Shown here in pieces: positions 17,826 through 53,651 of a stretch of DNA of 64,000 bases; within the stretch, counting starts at the first letter, position 1, and every line of letters begins with the position of its first letter. A program made the translations under genes and the position numbers. The stretch is from Lentzea tibetensis. Its GTDB lineage: Bacteria > Actinomycetota > Actinomycetes > Mycobacteriales > Pseudonocardiaceae. The notes under the pieces were generated by a model, which searched no databases, had not been told where the DNA came from, and saw nothing but the letters and a program-made list of their open reading frames with translations. The stretch is from positions 62,001 through 126,000 of the forward strand of contig NZ_VOBR01000015.1 of NCBI RefSeq assembly GCF_007845675.1. Reading direction: 5' to 3'.

Positions 17826-18536
17826 GTGCGCAGACGACTCGTCGTGGCGCTGGTCGTCGTCCTGGTGCTCGCCTGCGCGGTCATCGGCGCCGACCGGCTG
17901 GTGAACGCCAGGACGTTCCAGCTCGGCGGCGACCTCGTGCACCGCGTCGAGACGGCGGAGAAGGTCGTCGCGCTCACCTTCGACGACGGCCCCAGCGACA
18001 AGACCGAGTCCGTGCTGGACGTCCTGCGCGAACAGCAGGTGCGGGCGACGTTCTTCCTCGTCGGCACGGACCTGCACGCACAGCCCGCGCTGGGCCGCAA
18101 GATCGTCGCCGACGGCCACCAGGTCGGCAACCACAGCTACACCCACTCCCGCATGGTGTTCACCGGATCCGGCACGGTCGCGTCCGAGATCGAACGCACC
18201 GACGCCGAGGTCCGCGCCGCCGGCTACCAGGGCGACATCCACTTCCGGCCGCCGTACGGCAAGAAGCTGTGGACCCTGCCGCGCTACCTCGCCGAACACC
18301 ACCGCACCACGATCATGTGGGACGTCGAGCCCGAGACCGACCCCGGCATCGCCGGTGACGCCGACGCCGTCGTCCGCGCCGTCGCCGAGACCGTGCGGCC
18401 GGGCTCCATCGTGCTGCTGCACCCGATGAACGAGTACAACAAGGCCACCGTGACCGCGTTGCCGCGCATCATCAGCGAACTGCGCGGCCAGGGCTACCGG
18501 TTCGTCACCGTGGACGAACTGCTGCGGCTGCGCTGA
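17826..18536 (+). CDS. Polysaccharide deacetylase (carbohydrate esterase 4)
   Basis: 236-residue exported or membrane-anchored NodB-type deacetylase, probably acting on peptidoglycan or another N-acetylated glycan. It has an N-terminal hydrophobic anchor (residues 5-22), motif 1 LTFDDGPSD with the metal Asp, motif 2 HSYTHS with both metal histidines, motif 3 RPPYG, and a late LHP motif (VLLHPM). All catalytic elements are present. It follows hrpA by four bases, and its 3' end overlaps the end of the caspase gene on the opposite strand by 32 bases. Confidence 0.93.
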   Translation: MRRRLVVALVVVLVLACAVIGADRLVNARTFQLGGDLVHRVETAEKVVALTFDDGPSDKTESVLDVLREQQVRATFFLVGTDLHAQPALGRKIVADGHQVGNHSYTHSRMVFTGSGTVASEIERTDAEVRAAGYQGDIHFRPPYGKKLWTLPRYLAEHHRTTIMWDVEPETDPGIAGDADAVVRAVAETVRPGSIVLLHPMNEYNKATVTALPRIISELRGQGYRFVTVDELLRLR

Positions 18537-20919
18537 GAGCCAGCGGCACCCACACCAGCCACGCCAGGCTGACGAAGCTGAAGTGGTACAACGCGGCGGT
18601 CGACGCCAGCAGCACCGCCCACGTGACCACCAACGCCATCGCGAACCCGTGCGGCCGCGCGCGAGCCGCCAGCACCGGCGTGACCGGTGTGGTCAGCGCG
18701 AGCAGCACCGGAGGCAACACGAGCACCAGCGACGGCAGGCTCTCCGCCGCCACGACCGTGCTCGCGGACGCGACCACCTGGCCCATCAGCACGAGGAACA
18801 ACACCGCCACGGCCACCCCGCACGCCATCAGCGCAGCGCCCCGCCAGTCGACTCGGCCGCCGCTGAACGTCAGCTGCGCGTCCCGCCGCACGACCACCCC
18901 GGCGACACCCGCCGCCACGCACAACCCCGCCCACCCGAGCGGCGCGGCCCAGAACCCCACGTTGTACGGGGCGAATCCGCCCGTGGCCAGCTCCCCGATG
19001 ACCACACCCCAGCCCCACGACGACACCGTCGCGGTCGCCACCAGCACGCCCAGCCCCGCCGCCCGCGCACCGGCCAGCAGGCAACCACCGGCCAGGAGCG
19101 CCGCCACCGCCATCGGCGTGAAGTACCACAGCACCACCGGACTCGTGACGAACAACGGATCGCCGTAGGTGTACGGCGCCAGCTGCGTCACCAGCAGCAA
19201 CGCCCCAGCGATCAACGACAGGGTCGCGCACCGCCGGACCAGCTGGTCCGGACGGGCCGATGGCCTGGAGGTCTCGCGCAGCGGCTGCGGAGCTGCCGAG
19301 TGCGATTGGCCGTGTGCCGGGGAATGCGGTGTCTCGCGAACCGGCTGCGAAACCGCCGCTTGCGATCGGCCAGGTACCGCGGACTGCGGTGCGTCGCGCG
19401 GTGGCTGCGGGGCCGCTGAGTGATCTGGTGGCGGCGCGGTCGCTGGTGGCCCGTCGACCGGCCGTTGCGCTCCCTGGGCCTCGCTCGCGGGCTGTCGGCG
19501 CTGCTGCTGCGGCGGCGTGCCGGCCAGGTTCTGCCGGGGTCGTGCCGTCGGACTGCCCCCGGCGTGCGGCACTCGCGCAGTCGGCGGGATCCCGGCCTCC
19601 GTGCGGGGCTCGGTCAACTCACCCGTCAGGTGTTCGGGAGCGGAGAGCCCCACGGCCTCGGGCCGCTGCTCCGGCACCTGGGGCACGTCGGCGCGCGCAG
19701 GCTCCGGGACCGGCGTCTCCACGGCGATCACAGCCACCGACGCGTCTCCGGTGGGCCCGGTGAACACGACCCGCCCGTGCGACACGCCGGGAGGCACCCG
19801 CCGCACCGACACCGACCACCCGTCACCCGCCTCCGCCACCACGATCCACGCCTCGGACGCGGCAACTGAGCACGCGCGAGCCAGCGGCGGCCCGCTCAAC
19901 GACACGACCTGCGGCGAGGCCTCGGAGAACCGCAGCTCCTCCACCGAAGGCCGCACCGCCACATCGCTCAACGCCTCCGAAGCGGCGGCGGCGACGTTCG
20001 CGATGTCCGTCCGGGCCATCCCGGTCAACGCCTCGAACGCCCCCGCGGCCACCTCCAGGTTGGGACTGCGCAACCGGGAGCGCAGCTCGGCCACCGCACC
20101 CAGGCGCGTGAACATGTTCGGATCGGACGTCGCGGCGGCCAGGTCGGCGGGCATCGGCAACGGCTTGATCCGCCGCCGCCCCGACCGCGCCAGGTACAGC
20201 TCGCCCTGCATCTCGATGTCACGACTGGGCGTCTGGTTCGGGTTGTTCTGCCGCACCTGCTCGAACACGTAGTCGTACAGCTCGTTGAGCGAGATCAGTC
20301 CGTCCTCGTCGCGGTCGGCCTCACCCGTCGACAACCCGCGCACCAGCGCGGAGGTGAACACCGACGGCGCGGCGTGCTCCTCGGCCAGCTGGTCGCCCTC
20401 GAACGCGTACTCCATCGAGTTCGACGCGGTGATCACCGCACGGCCCCGGCCGCCGGCGAGGCTGTCGAGCACCGCCACGTCACCGGCCGCCCGCACCGAC
20501 ACGCCCTCGCTGAACGCGCCGCCGTAACAGCAGTCGAGCAGCAGCACGATGCTGCGCGACCGGCTCACCCGCATGCAGCGCCGCACGAAGTCCGCGGGCA
20601 CCGCCGTCGAACCCAGCCGGTGCGGACGCGTGTTGCGCGCCGCGAAGTACAGCTCGCCGGACTCGCTCTTCACGCCGTGGCACGAGAAGTGCAGCAGCAG
20701 CACGTCGTCCGGCTCGCCCTCGAGGAACAGGTCCTCGATGCGTTCCTGCACGACGTTCGCCGTCTCGTTGCGCACGACCTCGACCTCGAAGTCGCTGACC
20801 CGGCGATCACCCAGCACCTCGGCCAGCGCGGCCGCGTCGGCGGCGGGGGAGCGCAGCGCGGAGAGCCCCGAGTGGTCGTACTCGGAGTTCGCGACGATCA
20901 GCGCCCGCCGCCTGCCCAT
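18505..20919 (-). CDS. Membrane-anchored caspase-family peptidase, EACC1-associated
   Basis: 804 residues. Residues 1-255 are a caspase/metacaspase (C14) domain with catalytic His81 (HFSCHG) and Cys131 (LLDCCYGG); an EF-hand-like loop DRDEDGLISLNE lies at 202-213. Residues about 255-320 look like HEAT-type helical repeats, and about 330-410 are beta-rich. A Pro-rich linker with three 20-residue repeats follows. From about 590 to the end lie roughly eight hydrophobic helices. The start (ATG 20919) overlaps the EACC1 stop. Caspases of this type are effectors of actinobacterial conflict and programmed-death modules. Here the protease would sit on the cytoplasmic side of the membrane. That topology and the trigger are inference. 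Confidence 0.88.
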   Translation of the reverse strand: MGRRRALIVANSEYDHSGLSALRSPAADAAALAEVLGDRRVSDFEVEVVRNETANVVQERIEDLFLEGEPDDVLLLHFSCHGVKSESGELYFAARNTRPHRLGSTAVPADFVRRCMRVSRSRSIVLLLDCCYGGAFSEGVSVRAAGDVAVLDSLAGGRGRAVITASNSMEYAFEGDQLAEEHAAPSVFTSALVRGLSTGEADRDEDGLISLNELYDYVFEQVRQNNPNQTPSRDIEMQGELYLARSGRRRIKPLPMPADLAAATSDPNMFTRLGAVAELRSRLRSPNLEVAAGAFEALTGMARTDIANVAAAASEALSDVAVRPSVEELRFSEASPQVVSLSGPPLARACSVAASEAWIVVAEAGDGWSVSVRRVPPGVSHGRVVFTGPTGDASVAVIAVETPVPEPARADVPQVPEQRPEAVGLSAPEHLTGELTEPRTEAGIPPTARVPHAGGSPTARPRQNLAGTPPQQQRRQPASEAQGAQRPVDGPPATAPPPDHSAAPQPPRDAPQSAVPGRSQAAVSQPVRETPHSPAHGQSHSAAPQPLRETSRPSARPDQLVRRCATLSLIAGALLLVTQLAPYTYGDPLFVTSPVVLWYFTPMAVAALLAGGCLLAGARAAGLGVLVATATVSSWGWGVVIGELATGGFAPYNVGFWAAPLGWAGLCVAAGVAGVVVRRDAQLTFSGGRVDWRGAALMACGVAVAVLFLVLMGQVVASASTVVAAESLPSLVLVLPPVLLALTTPVTPVLAARARPHGFAMALVVTWAVLLASTAALYHFSFVSLAWLVWVPLALSAAAAVRPR
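19271..19420. repeat. 60-bp tandem repeats in the caspase linker
   Basis: Units begin at 19271, 19331 and 19391 (the last is partial). The period is exactly 60 bases, so each unit encodes 20 residues of the Pro/Ser-rich linker (units read SAAPQPPRDAP..., AAVSQPVRETP..., SAAPQPLRETS). The units are diverged but clearly related at DNA level. Copy number could vary between strains without breaking the reading frame. Confidence 0.75.
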
Positions 20920-21287
20920 CAGGTGTGCCTGCCGACGAACAGCGCCACCAGCCGCTCCTGCTCCTCACCGGACGCGTCGGCGATCTCCAGCACGTCGCCG
21001 TCGATCTCGACGCGCACCGCCCGCTGCACCGGTCTGCCCCGGCCCAGCCACATCCGGACGGCCGTGACGATGGTCTGCAACGCGGTGGCGGACTGGCCGA
21101 GCGTCACCATCAGCCCGCCGACCGTGGCCACGTCCAACGCGCGTGACCCGGCGGGCGGCGGGCCCGCCGGGAGTGCGGTCACCGCGCGCACGTCCAGCTG
21201 AAGGAGTTCCTCACGCAGGTACCCGGTCACCTGGTCGAGGCGCTCGGCGTCCGCCCCGCGCTCGGCGAGGTGCAGTCTGAGGTTCAT
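20919..21287 (-). CDS. EACC1 (effector-associated constant component 1)
   Basis: 122 residues from the ATG at 21287, chosen because AGGAGG (21294-21299) lies at ideal distance; a TTG at 21326 would lengthen it by 13 residues. An N-terminal strand-helix part (MNLRLHLAERGADAERL) is followed by a glycine-rich hydrophobic helix (TVGGLMVTLGQSATALQTIVTAVRMW split over residues about 62-87) and a final beta hairpin with VEIDGDVLEIADASGEEQERLV. This is the layout of EACC1, the constant partner of diverse effectors in actinobacterial conflict systems. It overlaps the caspase start by one base, so production is coupled. Confidence 0.82.
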   Translation of the reverse strand: MNLRLHLAERGADAERLDQVTGYLREELLQLDVRAVTALPAGPPPAGSRALDVATVGGLMVTLGQSATALQTIVTAVRMWLGRGRPVQRAVRVEIDGDVLEIADASGEEQERLVALFVGRHT

Positions 21288-23181: not shown

Positions 23182-24137
23182 TCAGGCTCGGGGCGTGAAA
23201 GGTACGACCACCACGGTGATGTTGTCGTGACCGCCTGCTTCCAGCGCGACCTTCACGTACTCGTCCGGCCCGCAGTCGGCCAGCGGCAGCAGGTCCTCGA
23301 CGTCCGGCCGGTAGTTGTGCAGACCGTCGCTGCACAGCAGGAACACGCCGCTCTCGGTGGGCTTGAACGTCGTCACCGACGGCACGACCTGACCGGCGTC
23401 GGCGCCGATCCACCGCGACAGCACGTGCGCGCGCCGGTCGGTCTTGGCCTCCTCCTCGGTCAGCACGCCCTCCGCGACGAGCTGCGCCGCCCACGTGTCG
23501 TCCTTGGTGAGCTGCGCCGACGTGTCGCCCGCGAGCCAGTAGACGCGGCTGTCGCCGACCCAGCCGACCGTGACGTCCTCCTCGGTGGTCACCACCGACA
23601 CGAACGTGCACGACGGCGCCACGCCGCCACCGTTCTCCGGCCCGTCGAGCTGCTCGACCGACAGGCACGCCGCCGACACCGCGTCGATCGTCGCCTGCTC
23701 CGGGTCCGAGCCGTCGATCAGCGCGTCCACCAGCACGTCGGTCGCCGCGTCCGCTGCGGCCTGGGAGGCCTGCTCGGCGCGTTCCGAGGACGCCACGCCG
23801 TCGCACACGACCGCCGCGATGCCCTTGCCCGCGACGACGCCGAACGCCATGGAGTCCTCGTTGCGGGCGCGTCTGCGGCCGCGGTCCGAGACACCGGACA
23901 CCTGCCCGAGCGTGTACTCCACCCGGTCACGCGCGGCCGGCTGGTGCCGTCCGCACTGGGTGCAGTAGTGCTCGTCGTCGATGTCGGGCGAGGCGCACAG
24001 GATGCACGTCGCCTCGGCCGGGCCGGTCGGACCACCGATCGGGGTCCGTCGCACGAGCAGGTTGCGCCCGCACGCCTCGCAGAACCGATCGTCCATCGAG
24101 ATCGGTTCCAGGCATTCGGGGCAGTTCGGGGTGTCCA

Positions 24138-24138
<1 letters not shown>
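23182..24138 (-). CDS. PP2C-family Ser/Thr protein phosphatase with zinc ribbons
   Basis: 318 residues. The first 60 contain two zinc-ribbon-like Cys clusters (CPEC/CEAC and CILC/CTQC). A full PP2C domain follows, with metal ligands in ARNEDSM, VVCDGVAS, WVGDSRVYW, LLCSDGLHN and GGHDNITVVVV. It should dephosphorylate Ser/Thr residues. Its ATG (24138) overlaps the pknG stop by one base, which makes it the fourth gene of the glnX-glnH-pknG operon and a likely antagonist of PknG. The pairing as enzyme and counter-enzyme is inference from coupling. Confidence 0.9.
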
Positions 24139-27239
<3,101 letters not shown>

Positions 27240-27243
<4 letters not shown>

Positions 27244-28490
27244 CGGTACTCCTTGAGCCGCTGCCACAACCCCATCGACGACCCGACCGCGCTCACCAGC
27301 GCGAGCGCCAGCACCCCGACGGCCGTGCCCACCAGCGCACCCCGTGCCGCCGCGATCTCACCGCTGAACCCCTGCCGCGCCAGCCCGATCGCCCGCACCA
27401 GATCCGCGTCCAGCTCGTCGAAGGACGGCTCCGCGATCAACGCGACCGCCTCGTTGTACTGCCCCGCGTCGTCGGCCTCCCTGATCCGCTGGTGCGTCGC
27501 CTGCCAGTCCATGAAATGCCGCGACGCCGAGTCGACCTCCGCGCTCGGCGCGATCTTCCTCGCCTGGCCCAGCAGCCCTTCGAGCTTCTCCGACACCTCG
27601 ACGTAGCTCTTCTCGTAGTTCTGCCCGCTGCCGCGCGCCACCAGCGTCAGCGTCTCGTCGCTGCGGGCGGTCAGCGTGGCGATCCGCGCGTCCACCAGCA
27701 CCCCGACCCGGCTCGACCCGCCGCTGCGGCTGTCGCCGACGTCGTTGATCACGATCACCGCGGACAACGTGACCCACACCAGCGACACGAACGCCGCGCC
27801 CGTCGCGACCAGCAGCCCGACGTTGAGCAGCCGGTTCGTCCGGCGCGTCAGGTACGCCTGCGCCAGCCCGAGCGCAACGAGCGCCAGCAGCCCGAGCAGC
27901 ACCTCCGACACGGGGAACCGCGCCGCCCGGTCCTGCGCCTGCGCCACCCCGTCCGACTCGGCCCGGTACAGCTCCTGCGCCGCGGGCAGCAGCTGGTTGC
28001 GCATCATCCCCGACGCTTCGCGCAGGTACGCCGCCCCGACCGGGAATCCCTGCCGGTTGTTCGTGCGCGCCGTCTCGATCAGTCCGGTGTAGACCGGCAG
28101 CTGACTGGCCAGCGTCGCGGTGAGCTCCGGGTGCGACGCCGTCGCACGGGAGAGCGCCGCCTGCGCCTGCGCGATGTCCGTCTCGTAGCGCGCCCGCAGG
28201 TCCACCGGCTCGAGCCCGCCGGAGAGGAACGCGCTCGCCGCCGCCGCGTCGGCGTCCTGCAGCGACCGGTACACCTCCTGCGCCGCGTGGGCCAGCGGCT
28301 CACTGCGCGTCGCCAGCTCCTCCAGCGCCGCCGCGCGGTTGATCACGCTCATCGCGGTGAGGCTGCCCGCGATGAAACTCGCGGCGATCAGGAGCAGCGC
28401 GATCAGGCTCAACCGGCCGGGCGTGGAGCGTGCCAGGCCGGTGACCCGCCGCAGCATCGCCTCACGAGGCTGCTCAGTCTCGATCACCAC
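27240..28490 (-). CDS. glnX: GlnX, membrane signal transmitter
   Basis: 416-residue integral membrane protein. It has one N-terminal helix (about 22-45), an extracytoplasmic helical domain of about 120 residues, two helices near the middle (about 195-245), a second helical sensor-like domain, and a last helix at about 385-408. This duplicated helix-bundle layout is that of GlnX, which passes the ligand state of GlnH to PknG. Tandem GTG codons at 28490 and 28487 are the likely starts. It is the first gene of the operon; downstream genes overlap or lie within 13 bases. Confidence 0.85.
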
Positions 28491-28553
28491 GGCGTAAGGG
28501 TAAGCACTCGAGTGACATCGCGGGGGCACGACGCGACTTGCATTGCCGCCCTA

Positions 28554-51653: not shown

Positions 51654-52904
51654 GTGGGGGCGACTACAACCTCGGTGCACCGCACCATCGACGCGGTCTG
51701 GCGAATGGAGTCGGCGAAGGTCATCGCCGCACTCGCGCGATACGTGCGCGACGTCGGACTCGCGGAAGAGCTCGCGCAGGACGCACTCGTGGCCGCGCTG
51801 GAGCAGTGGCCGAACGACGGCGTGCCGAACAATCCGGGTGCGTGGCTCATGACCACCGCCAAGCGCCGCGCGATCGACACGATCCGGCGCAAGGAGAACT
51901 TCAACCGCAAGGTCGAGGAGATCGGCCGCGAGCTCACCGAGGTCACCCCCGACGCGAGCGAGGGCATCGAGGACGAGATCGGCGACGACCTGCTGAGCCT
52001 CATGTTCACCGCCTGCCACCCGGTGCTCACCACCGAGGCGCGCGTCGCGCTGACGTTGAAGATGCTCGGCGGGCTCAAGACCGAGGAGATCGCGCGGGCG
52101 TTCCTCGTGTCCGAGTCGACCGTCGCGCAACGCATCGTGCGGGCGAAGAAGACGCTGGCCGACGCCGGCGTGCCGTTCGAGGTGCCCGAAGGTCCCGAGC
52201 TCGCCGGACGGCTCTCGTCCGTGCTCGAGGCCATCTACCTGATCTTCAACGAGGGCTACTCGGCGACCGCGGGCGACGACTGGATGCGGCCCGAGCTGTG
52301 CCAGGACGCGTTGCGGCTCGGCCGCATCCTCGCCGAGCTGGCGCCGAAGGAGCCCGAGGTGCACGGGCTGGTCGCGCTGATGGAGATCCAGGCCTCCCGG
52401 TCCCGCGCGCGCACCGGCCCGAACGGCGAACCGGTGCTGCTGCTCGAACAGGACCGCAGCCGCTGGGACCAGCTGCTGATCCGCCGCGGCCTGGCCGCGC
52501 TCGAACGCGCCGAGACGCTCGGCCAGGAACCCGGCCCGTACCTCGTGCAGGCCGCGTTGGCGGCGTGCCACGCGCGGGCCCGCACACCGGAGGACACGGA
52601 CTGGCGGCGCATCGCGTTCCTCTACGCGGCGCTCGCCCAGATCACCCCGTCGCCGATCGTGGAGCTCAACCGCGCGGTCGCGATGTCGATGGCGTTCGGC
52701 CCTGAGGTGGGGCTGGAGCTGGTCGACCAGCTCCTCGGCGAGAAGGCGTTGAAGGACTACCACCTGCTGCCCAGCGTGCGCGGCGACCTGCTGCACAAGC
52801 TCGGCCGCACCGACGAGGCCCGCGCCGAGTTCGAACGGGCCGCGTCGCTCACCCGCAACGAACGCGAACGCGCCTTTCTACTCGGGCGCGCCGCCGACTG
52901 CTGA
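51654..52904 (+). CDS. ECF42-group RNA polymerase sigma factor
   Basis: 416 residues from GTG 51654. Sigma2 (about 10-80, YVRDVGLAEELAQDALVAALEQWP) and sigma4 (about 115-175, LGGLKTEEIARAFLVSESTVAQRIVRAKKTLA) are followed by a long C-terminal TPR-like extension (DUF6596, ending in LGRTDEARAEFERAASL). This extension is the hallmark of ECF42 and replaces an anti-sigma factor as control element. It lies with a DGPF protein gene and an ECF42-like promoter. The 3' end overlaps the AraC-type gene by 27 bases antisense. Confidence 0.93.
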   Translation: MGATTTSVHRTIDAVWRMESAKVIAALARYVRDVGLAEELAQDALVAALEQWPNDGVPNNPGAWLMTTAKRRAIDTIRRKENFNRKVEEIGRELTEVTPDASEGIEDEIGDDLLSLMFTACHPVLTTEARVALTLKMLGGLKTEEIARAFLVSESTVAQRIVRAKKTLADAGVPFEVPEGPELAGRLSSVLEAIYLIFNEGYSATAGDDWMRPELCQDALRLGRILAELAPKEPEVHGLVALMEIQASRSRARTGPNGEPVLLLEQDRSRWDQLLIRRGLAALERAETLGQEPGPYLVQAALAACHARARTPEDTDWRRIAFLYAALAQITPSPIVELNRAVAMSMAFGPEVGLELVDQLLGEKALKDYHLLPSVRGDLLHKLGRTDEARAEFERAASLTRNERERAFLLGRAADC

Positions 52905-53651
52905 CCTGGCGTACGCGCTGGGCGGCACCCCGATGGTCTGGGTGAAGTCCCGCACCAGGTGCGCCTGGTCGCTGTAGCCCAGCTCGGCGGCCAGCCGCGC
53001 CCAGTCGACGTTCGTCGCGGCCCGCTCCAGCGCCTCGTGGATGCGGTAGCGCAGGATCACCCACTTCGGGCTGACGCCGACGTGCGCGTTGAACAGCCGT
53101 TGCAGCGACCGCACCGGCAGGCCGAGGTCGGTGACCTTGCGGATCTCGCGGTCGGTGCGGATGTGCTGGACGACTTCCATCGCCTCGTCGACCTGCGGGT
53201 CCGGTTTCGGATCGCGCGCCAGCAGTGCGTCGTCGAGTGCCTGGACGCGGGCGTCCTCGTCATCCGGGCCGACGATCTGTTGCCACGGGATCTCGGTGAA
53301 CGGCACCCGCAGCCCGGTCCAGCGCGACACCGGGTGCTCCGGCAGGAACGGCCGGAACCCGCCCGGCCGGAACTGCACTCCGCAGATCCGCACGTCACCG
53401 AGCATCGTGTGGCTGAACAGGTCCAGCCCGACGCCGGCCAGTTCACCGCCGCCCGGCTGGAACACCAGGTTCACCGACGGGTGCGGCACCACGTGCGTGG
53501 TGTACGGCTCGGGCAGGTGGCCGTCGATCAGCCAGTAGTGCTCGAGGTAGCGGCGCAGCGGCTCGGCGGGCAGCCGCCGCCGGAACCGCACCCGCGAGAA
53601 CAACTCGGGCGCGTTGACGATGCCCCGCGTGTCACGGCGCGGTGCGGCCAA
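52878..53651 (-). CDS. AraC-family transcriptional regulator
   Basis: 257 residues from TTG 53651. N-terminal DUF6597-type sensor region (LPAEPLRRYLEHYWLIDG, HPSVNLVFQPGG) and C-terminal double helix-turn-helix (VRSLQRLFNAHVGVSPKWVILRYRIHEAL, split over residues about 175-205; then WARLAAELGYSDQAHLVRDF). The start lies 20 bases inside the end of the ECF41 gene, so the two are translated together. A TTG start is accepted for lack of a better one. Confidence 0.88.
   Translation of the reverse strand: MAAPRRDTRGIVNAPELFSRVRFRRRLPAEPLRRYLEHYWLIDGHLPEPYTTHVVPHPSVNLVFQPGGGELAGVGLDLFSHTMLGDVRICGVQFRPGGFRPFLPEHPVSRWTGLRVPFTEIPWQQIVGPDDEDARVQALDDALLARDPKPDPQVDEAMEVVQHIRTDREIRKVTDLGLPVRSLQRLFNAHVGVSPKWVILRYRIHEALERAATNVDWARLAAELGYSDQAHLVRDFTQTIGVPPSAYARSAVGGAPE

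Follow-up and report, generated by a model that had tools for sequence, protein, structure and literature searches.

A pair of genes on the minus strand of a 64,000-nucleotide stretch of the Lentzea tibetensis genome (contig NZ_VOBR01000015.1, positions 62,001 to 126,000; the whole stretch is called the window here) encodes a small EACC1-like protein and, 3′ of it, a caspase whose chain ends in an eight-helix membrane domain. Judged by its sequence, this module is most likely an EACC1-caspase two-gene system, which Kaur et al. (2020, PMC7159879) describe as System 4, and it belongs to a branch whose caspases carry an EF-hand-type loop. The reading we prefer, with a probability of about 0.5, is that the membrane domain serves as a receptor-like sensor and is linked to a caspase in the cytoplasm, possibly under the control of Ca2+, which would arrest or kill the cell.

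The case for a sensor comes in part from what relatives carry at the same place in the protein. The EF-loop branch includes 22 relatives with a single predicted transmembrane (TM) segment, and the part of the chain beyond that segment was scanned in 10. A periplasmic-binding protein domain was found in one (147.7 bits), WD40 repeats in three, Kelch repeats in one, a cyclophilin in one, a DUF1349/lectin-like domain in one and a weak propeller below the cut-off in one, and no domain match was obtained in the remaining 2 of the 10 scanned. Since these are mostly binding domains, the membrane domain of the window protein sits where relatives have their input modules. A preliminary description of the locus had cast the membrane-bearing protein as an effector; that role is only putative, and what relatives carry in this place resembles sensors rather more. 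The odds that the membrane domain acts as a receptor appear to us roughly balanced, and this role is favored over that of a released membrane-active effector.

In the mechanism that we propose, the protease would be suspended in the cytoplasm from the membrane, and the membrane domain would take in the signal, acting much as a receptor does and responding to something that happens at the cell envelope, which could be phage entry, membrane damage or a foreign molecule. EACC1 and the binding of Ca2+ at the EF-type loop would govern the caspase, and the activated caspase would then cut itself or cell proteins so that the cell stops or dies. Death or arrest of the cell is the part of this scheme that we consider somewhat probable, while control of the caspase by Ca2+ through the loop is plausible at rather less than even odds.

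The features on which the analysis is based are as follows.

20919..21287, minus strand: EACC1-like gene, 122 amino acids; open reading frame (ORF) with a PF19953 score below the cut-off
21057..21113, minus strand: central EACC1 segment of small residues, about residues 59-77; Kyte-Doolittle hydropathy 1.31, weakly hydrophobic
20917..20921, minus strand: TGATG stop/start overlap at the junction of the EACC1-like gene and the caspase gene
18505..20919, minus strand: caspase gene, 804 amino acids; ORF matching NF047832
20185..20916, minus strand: caspase domain, residues 2-245; 170.4 bits with NF047832 and 67.6 bits with Peptidase_C14
20677..20679, minus strand: predicted catalytic His81
20527..20529, minus strand: predicted catalytic Cys131
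20281..20316, minus strand: EF-hand-type loop, residues 202-213, DRDEDGLISLNE, recognized by pattern conservation
19966..20148, minus strand: four HEAT-like helices, residues about 258-318; AlphaFold2 model, mean predicted local distance difference test (pLDDT) 92
19708..19962, minus strand: beta sandwich of the Ig-like / PapD-MSP-like type, about residues 320-404, from the structure model
19252..19707, minus strand: Pro/Ala/Gln/Arg-rich linker, residues 405-556, from composition
18508..19251, minus strand: eight-helix membrane domain, residues 557-804, from predicted helices; both ends predicted inside by the positive-inside rule

The two ORFs have exactly one base in common, as the preliminary description had stated; it lies in the TGATG junction, and this overlap suggests translational coupling. 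The caspase passes both the NCBIfam model NF047832 'caspase, EACC1-associated type' (cut-off 140 bits) and the Pfam C14 model (cut-off 21.4 bits), with the matches beginning at residue 2-4 of the protein. In an alignment of 146 caspases, window included, His81 was conserved in all 146 and Cys131 in 145, so that the catalytic pair proposed earlier is confirmed and the window caspase has the His-Cys dyad of Peptidase C14. The alignment is a non-random sample: 28 loci were taken by similarity to the window protein and the others were hand-picked from candidate lists, L063 was left out as a duplicate of the window, and identical caspase domains were counted once. Two rows lack a known 5′ end and six a known 3′ end, which leaves 144 and 140 caspases, respectively, for the comparisons of upstream genes and of C-termini. 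The nearest named relatives of the window protein are from Lentzea (75-78% in the best segment), with the match nearly full-length. At its 3′ end the caspase gene overlaps a convergent polysaccharide deacetylase gene by 32 bases (window 18505-18536); in the related locus L036 it overlaps the helicase gene rather than the deacetylase gene.

The EACC1-like protein of the window alone scored 13.9 bits against PF19953 (cut-off 23.6, E 0.053). In alignment A3, which has 25 members and includes the window, 21 sequences matched that family at E<=1, the best of them at 1.1e-8. The position 5′ of the caspase and the family profile fit System 4. EACC1 was called with a profile built iteratively from the same candidates (E<=0.01). 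Among the 144 caspases whose 5′ end is known, that of the window being one, it was adjacent to the caspase in 70 and fused to it in frame in 21 (91/144). At the other 53 no EACC1 was found with this profile; seven of these had an EACC1-like ORF elsewhere in the stretch, in five cases on the opposite strand. The earlier assignment to EACC1-linked caspases of the actinobacterial conflict-system kind is supported, and the doubt raised with it, that the caspase might not pair with EACC1 in relatives, was not realized.

Most of the fusions come from the same genus. A caspase relative was present at E<=1e-30 in 24 of 25 same-genus genomes, and two types could be told apart: the window type in 4/25, with caspase domains 89-100% identical, and a second type in 19/25, with 56-59% identity. 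EACC1 and caspase were scored as one chain at all 19 second-type loci, eight of which were inspected at the sequence level; in one of these eight, L071, which sits at the end of a contig, the in-frame part of EACC1 is limited to its C-terminal half. The single chain of L167 passes both Pfam cut-offs, with 31.0 bits for EACC1 and 61.6 bits for C14. Beyond this clade, an Actinoplanes protein (L057) is likewise fused, and the start of a Micromonosporaceae fragment (L056) lies inside EACC1-like sequence. These comparisons show that EACC1 goes with the caspase: here the two genes form a predicted coupled pair, and in relatives the two proteins make up a single chain. That they are fused in nature speaks for a direct partnership, and the fusion would also put the C-terminal portion of EACC1 on the caspase side of the membrane.

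In their account of the family, Kaur et al. (PMC7159879) regard the central small-residue segment of EACC1 as a TM helix. The segment of the window protein contains Gly, Ser and Ala and its hydropathy is only 1.31; in the EF-loop group with five or more TM segments the median is 1.31-1.40. These values bear on the idea that the membrane domain is a mere anchor that holds the caspase beside EACC1, with signal and killing located elsewhere. With the fused clade left out, the EACC1 segments that accompany caspases with five or more TM segments are less hydrophobic (median 1.31, n=11) than those of the branch without the EF loop (1.86, n=32; p 0.004) and of the EF-loop branch with fewer TM segments (1.64, n=25; p only 0.089), both p values being uncorrected for kinship. 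An anchor would also agree with the wide variation in predicted helix number among relatives (e.g. 1, 3, 6, 8, 15) and with the existence of two same-genus membrane domains without detectable homology (hhalign probability 0.1). One helix is enough for anchoring, however, and several relatives have folded domains past the TM segment, so that we consider a mere anchor improbable.

Under a simple hydropathy rule, eight hydrophobic segments follow the caspase domain, compared with an average of 2.0 and a maximum of 5 when residues 246-804 were shuffled 200 times; all TM counts in this work come from this rule and are to be read against those 2.0 chance calls. Lysine and arginine residues are distributed over the successive loops as 4,0,1,0,4,0,2,0,2, consistent with the positive-inside rule. 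The domain matched no Pfam family at E<=1. The preliminary description was thus right to count about eight helices and to leave the domain without a family name, and its alternative of a separate gene fused by error was not realized, the region being in frame in relatives. Its view that such a domain is unusual was not borne out. Of the 140 caspases whose 3′ end is known, 36 had no predicted TM segment, 48 had one, 25 had two to four and 31 had five or more. The System 4 account in PMC7159879 calls the system membrane-associated and puts the share of its caspase proteins that have TM helices at 33% or more. Eighteen of the 31 come from one same-genus clade. In this non-random sample, five or more segments occurred in 31/74 of the EF-loop group versus 0/66 outside it, and in a whole-genome sample outside the genus the counts were 2/27 and 0/65.

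C-termini of relatives range from 0 to 15 predicted TM segments and include unrelated domains, which is the variability described for System 4. One-chain caspase relatives from Asanoa (L041:3929-6859) and Micromonospora (L043) have 15 and 14 predicted segments. A profile of the window membrane domain gave matches at E<=1e-3 in 17 of 200 genomes of the family. Six had E<1e-12, all on caspases; four of these six belong to genomes that had contributed to the query alignment (window, L035, L036, L059), leaving two that were new. With 13 candidates scored per genome, 10 of the 17 match loci were inspected, and at four weak matches among them there was no caspase. The domain also aligned with that of L093/L097 (probability 92.4, E 5.2e-7, values that hydrophobic composition may inflate), while homology to the membrane domain of the fused clade was not detected. 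The caspase tree places the carriers L056, L057 and L059 beside the fused clade (97/92) and away from the window clade, with other C-termini in between. This scattering suggests exchange or repeated replacement of membrane domains.

Bacterial gasdermin-protease modules couple a caspase-like protease to membrane permeabilization. A comparable possibility here gives the membrane domain the part of the weapon: once the caspase has cut the linker, the freed eight-helix domain would rearrange or assemble and permeabilize the membrane in a gasdermin-like manner. The likeness to the gasdermin modules exists in this one reading, with the difference that here the multi-helix membrane part is on the protease itself. 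In favor of a weapon, 15 Arg and 31 Pro are counted among 151 residues of the linker. The repeat claimed earlier for the linker is there as well, with a unit of 60 bp (2.3 copies, 19273-19409). Autoproteolytic release of C-terminal effectors is proposed in the System 4 account (PMC7159879), the membrane domain diverges fast, and its six strong matches are all on caspases. Against a weapon stand the eight helices with regular positive-inside loops, which look like a constitutively inserted protein, and the same-place domains of the 10 scanned relatives, which are mostly binding domains; a cleavage site in the linker was not demonstrated. We therefore regard the weapon as the less likely explanation, at well below even odds, and retain the sensor.

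Between the caspase domain and the linker, the region after the caspase domain was modeled as four helices with pLDDT >90. The HEAT-like helices reported earlier stand as helices in the model; their HEAT assignment is weak, as the Pfam HEAT_2 model matched in 2 of 18 relatives with a best E of 0.014. Directly after them the model predicts the Ig-like sandwich, which was absent from the earlier list.

Both membrane domains found in the genus diverge much faster than their caspases, which we count in favor of a sensor. In comparisons with three Lentzea relatives, the window protein showed 90% identity over its caspase and 35-36% over its membrane domain. Nonsynonymous (dN) and synonymous (dS) rates were estimated by a simple pairwise count, and the pairs compared are not independent. 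For the close pair L035-L037, dN/dS was 0.13/0.19 in the membrane domain and 0.01/0.14 in the caspase, and across six window-clade pairs the membrane-domain values ran from 0.31/0.67 to 0.72/0.65. In the fused clade (18 loci; pairs kept at 0.05<dS<0.6, with 53/153 membrane-domain pairs left out), the median dN/dS was 0.49 for the membrane domain (100/153 pairs), 0.28 for EACC1 (129 pairs) and 0.10 for the caspase (152 pairs), and 0.15 (76 pairs) and 0.16 (74 pairs) for two neighboring permease genes. Other genes present in at least 8 fused-clade loci had median dN / median dS of 0.11 to 0.37, and by the same arithmetic the helicase, GH9, PP2C and PknG genes of the window locus were low (0.16-0.26).

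The pattern of the EF-type loop was present in 76/76 caspases of the branch of the window and in 2/70 outside it, which bears out the EF-hand-like loop of the preliminary description. Position 202 is Asp in all 76, position 204 is Asp in 67 and Asn in 9, position 206 is Asp in 76, position 209 is Ile or Val in 76, and position 213 is Glu in 70 and Asp in 6; these are the ligands of a canonical 12-residue EF-hand loop. EF-hand motifs have been reported in 7 archaeal orthocaspases, according to the pertinent part of PMC6426788. The loop is not unique to the branch, as it was also found in a Nostoc caspase and in a Nonomuraea plasmid caspase. The locus of the latter (L205, Nonomuraea gerenzanensis plasmid p1, 2584-5557) consists of a 137-amino-acid hypothetical gene, a short EF-loop caspase gene and a WD40 gene that overlaps the caspase gene in another frame, with an integrase alongside, and may represent the same architecture split up or broken by a frameshift.

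Several results weigh against the sensor scheme or its parts. The loop does not reach the Pfam EF-hand cut-off (EF-hand_8, 12 bits; cut-off 28), so that it is termed here an EF-type loop and not classed as an EF-hand domain; in view of this score and the Nostoc occurrence, the loop may be structural. In the System 4 description of PMC7159879, the effectors are the variable domains at the C-terminus. Rapid divergence would be equally in line with an effector that is being counter-attacked or with an anchor under little constraint, and a control goes against its being unique to the membrane domain: a neighboring four-TM protein (27240-28529) had dN 0.13 and dS 0.24 between the window and L165, with 206 of 429 residues aligned. 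Positive selection on the membrane domain was not demonstrated by pairwise dN/dS in either clade. Among the six window-clade pairs only that of the window and L036 had dN above dS (0.72/0.65), a poor estimate at 35% identity, and no kept fused-clade pair exceeded 0.74; the fused-clade rates, moreover, describe a membrane domain without detectable homology to that of the window. A concentration of divergence in the outside loops was rejected, the changes being spread over helices and loops. Finally, the presence of the fused type in 19/25 genomes is less like a fast-turnover defense gene.

The genomic setting bears on a further alternative, in which the caspase is a housekeeping or developmental protease of envelope or sporulation signaling and no conflict system is involved. 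The window-type module lies between an HrpA-type helicase gene and GH9/PP2C/PknG genes here and in one same-genus genome (L036/L165), and the adjoining PP2C gene is present in 25/25 same-genus genomes. In the fused clade, a 296-amino-acid membrane protein accompanies the fused gene in 18/18 stretches compared, together with transporter-like genes in 13 to 16 of the 18, including a binding-protein gene in 16/18 (the name being read from the sequences). Such company would suit a housekeeping role. Against it, the window-type copy is sporadic and occupies two kinds of site. In two other genomes (L035/L166, L037/L164) none of the flanking genes lies within 9-10 kb of the module, and the PP2C locus of 20 further genomes of the genus held no caspase or EACC1 match >100 bits. 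Because of these two observations, the window-type module is accessory, occurring in 4/25 same-genus genomes, twice at the window site and twice elsewhere, which we count in favor of the preferred reading. The family is also described as conflict-associated in the System 4 account (PMC7159879), and we consider a housekeeping protease distinctly unlikely, the least probable of the alternatives to a sensor-coupled caspase.

In two loci, L167 (8066-8956) and L070 (5470-6360), the gene for the 296-amino-acid protein immediately precedes the fused gene; the protein has no Pfam match over the cut-off and is a candidate third component of the fused system. An operon with GH9 was considered and rejected as not conserved, since GH9 occurs without the module (L185, L186, L196) and the module without GH9 (L164, L166). 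The PknG kinase gene and the zinc-ribbon PP2C phosphatase gene form a tight pair at window 23182-26267, and this pair was found in all 20 stretches fetched for it. Farther along the window, a tRNA-Arg (gcg) called by ARAGORN on the minus strand at 52815-52888 overlaps the ends of the ORFs 51654-52904 and 52878-53651, so that at least one of these two has probably been called too long.

As described in the pertinent sections of PMC7159879, System 4 is a two-gene EACC1-caspase system prevalent in actinobacteria, with up to 50 kinds of C-terminal domain; EACC1 is proposed there to be a membrane sensor and the effectors to be deployed through auto-proteolysis. The window module shares with it a 5′ gene, here a putative EACC1, and the 3′ gene with an N-terminal caspase, a variable C-terminal domain and TM helices. 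In contrast to the EACC1 of that description, which is standalone or fused to EAD1/EAD2, a whole clade here fuses EACC1 to the caspase. The words 'EF-hand' and 'calcium' are absent from the main text of that paper, and the EF-type loop is a feature of the branch studied here; the HEAT/Ig-like middle and the eight-helix domain are not mentioned in its System 4 description. The EACC2-caspase / TRADD-N associated systems, in the portion of PMC8195603 devoted to them, are similar in their constant caspase module and variable C-terminus, which includes multi-TM domains suggested by the authors as possible pores; they differ in that EACC2 is a constant partner on the same chain and that genes for TRADD-N or an extracytoplasmic function (ECF) sigma factor accompany it.

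No report of an EACC1-caspase fusion, or of Ca2+ in EACC1-caspase proteins, stood out in the open-access PubMed Central (PMC) literature, which does not prove that none exists. The clade-wide natural fusion looks new, as do the particular membrane domain of the window and its rapid divergence; the kind of system was already described. A bolder and quite improbable extension is a bacterial counterpart of death receptors, in which a private, fast-diverging multi-helix membrane receptor and HEAT/Ig-like adaptors would be joined to a cytoplasmic caspase that is held ready by EACC1 and fired by Ca2+ entry upon a breach of the envelope. In the open-access papers found, EACC1-caspase systems are predicted rather than experimentally worked out. 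The natural single-chain EACC1-caspase could be taken directly into structural and activity studies, and the EF-type loop offers a simple biochemical test for Ca2+. With their near-constant caspases and divergent membrane domains, the same-genus pairs lend themselves to domain swaps that could tell a sensor from an effector.

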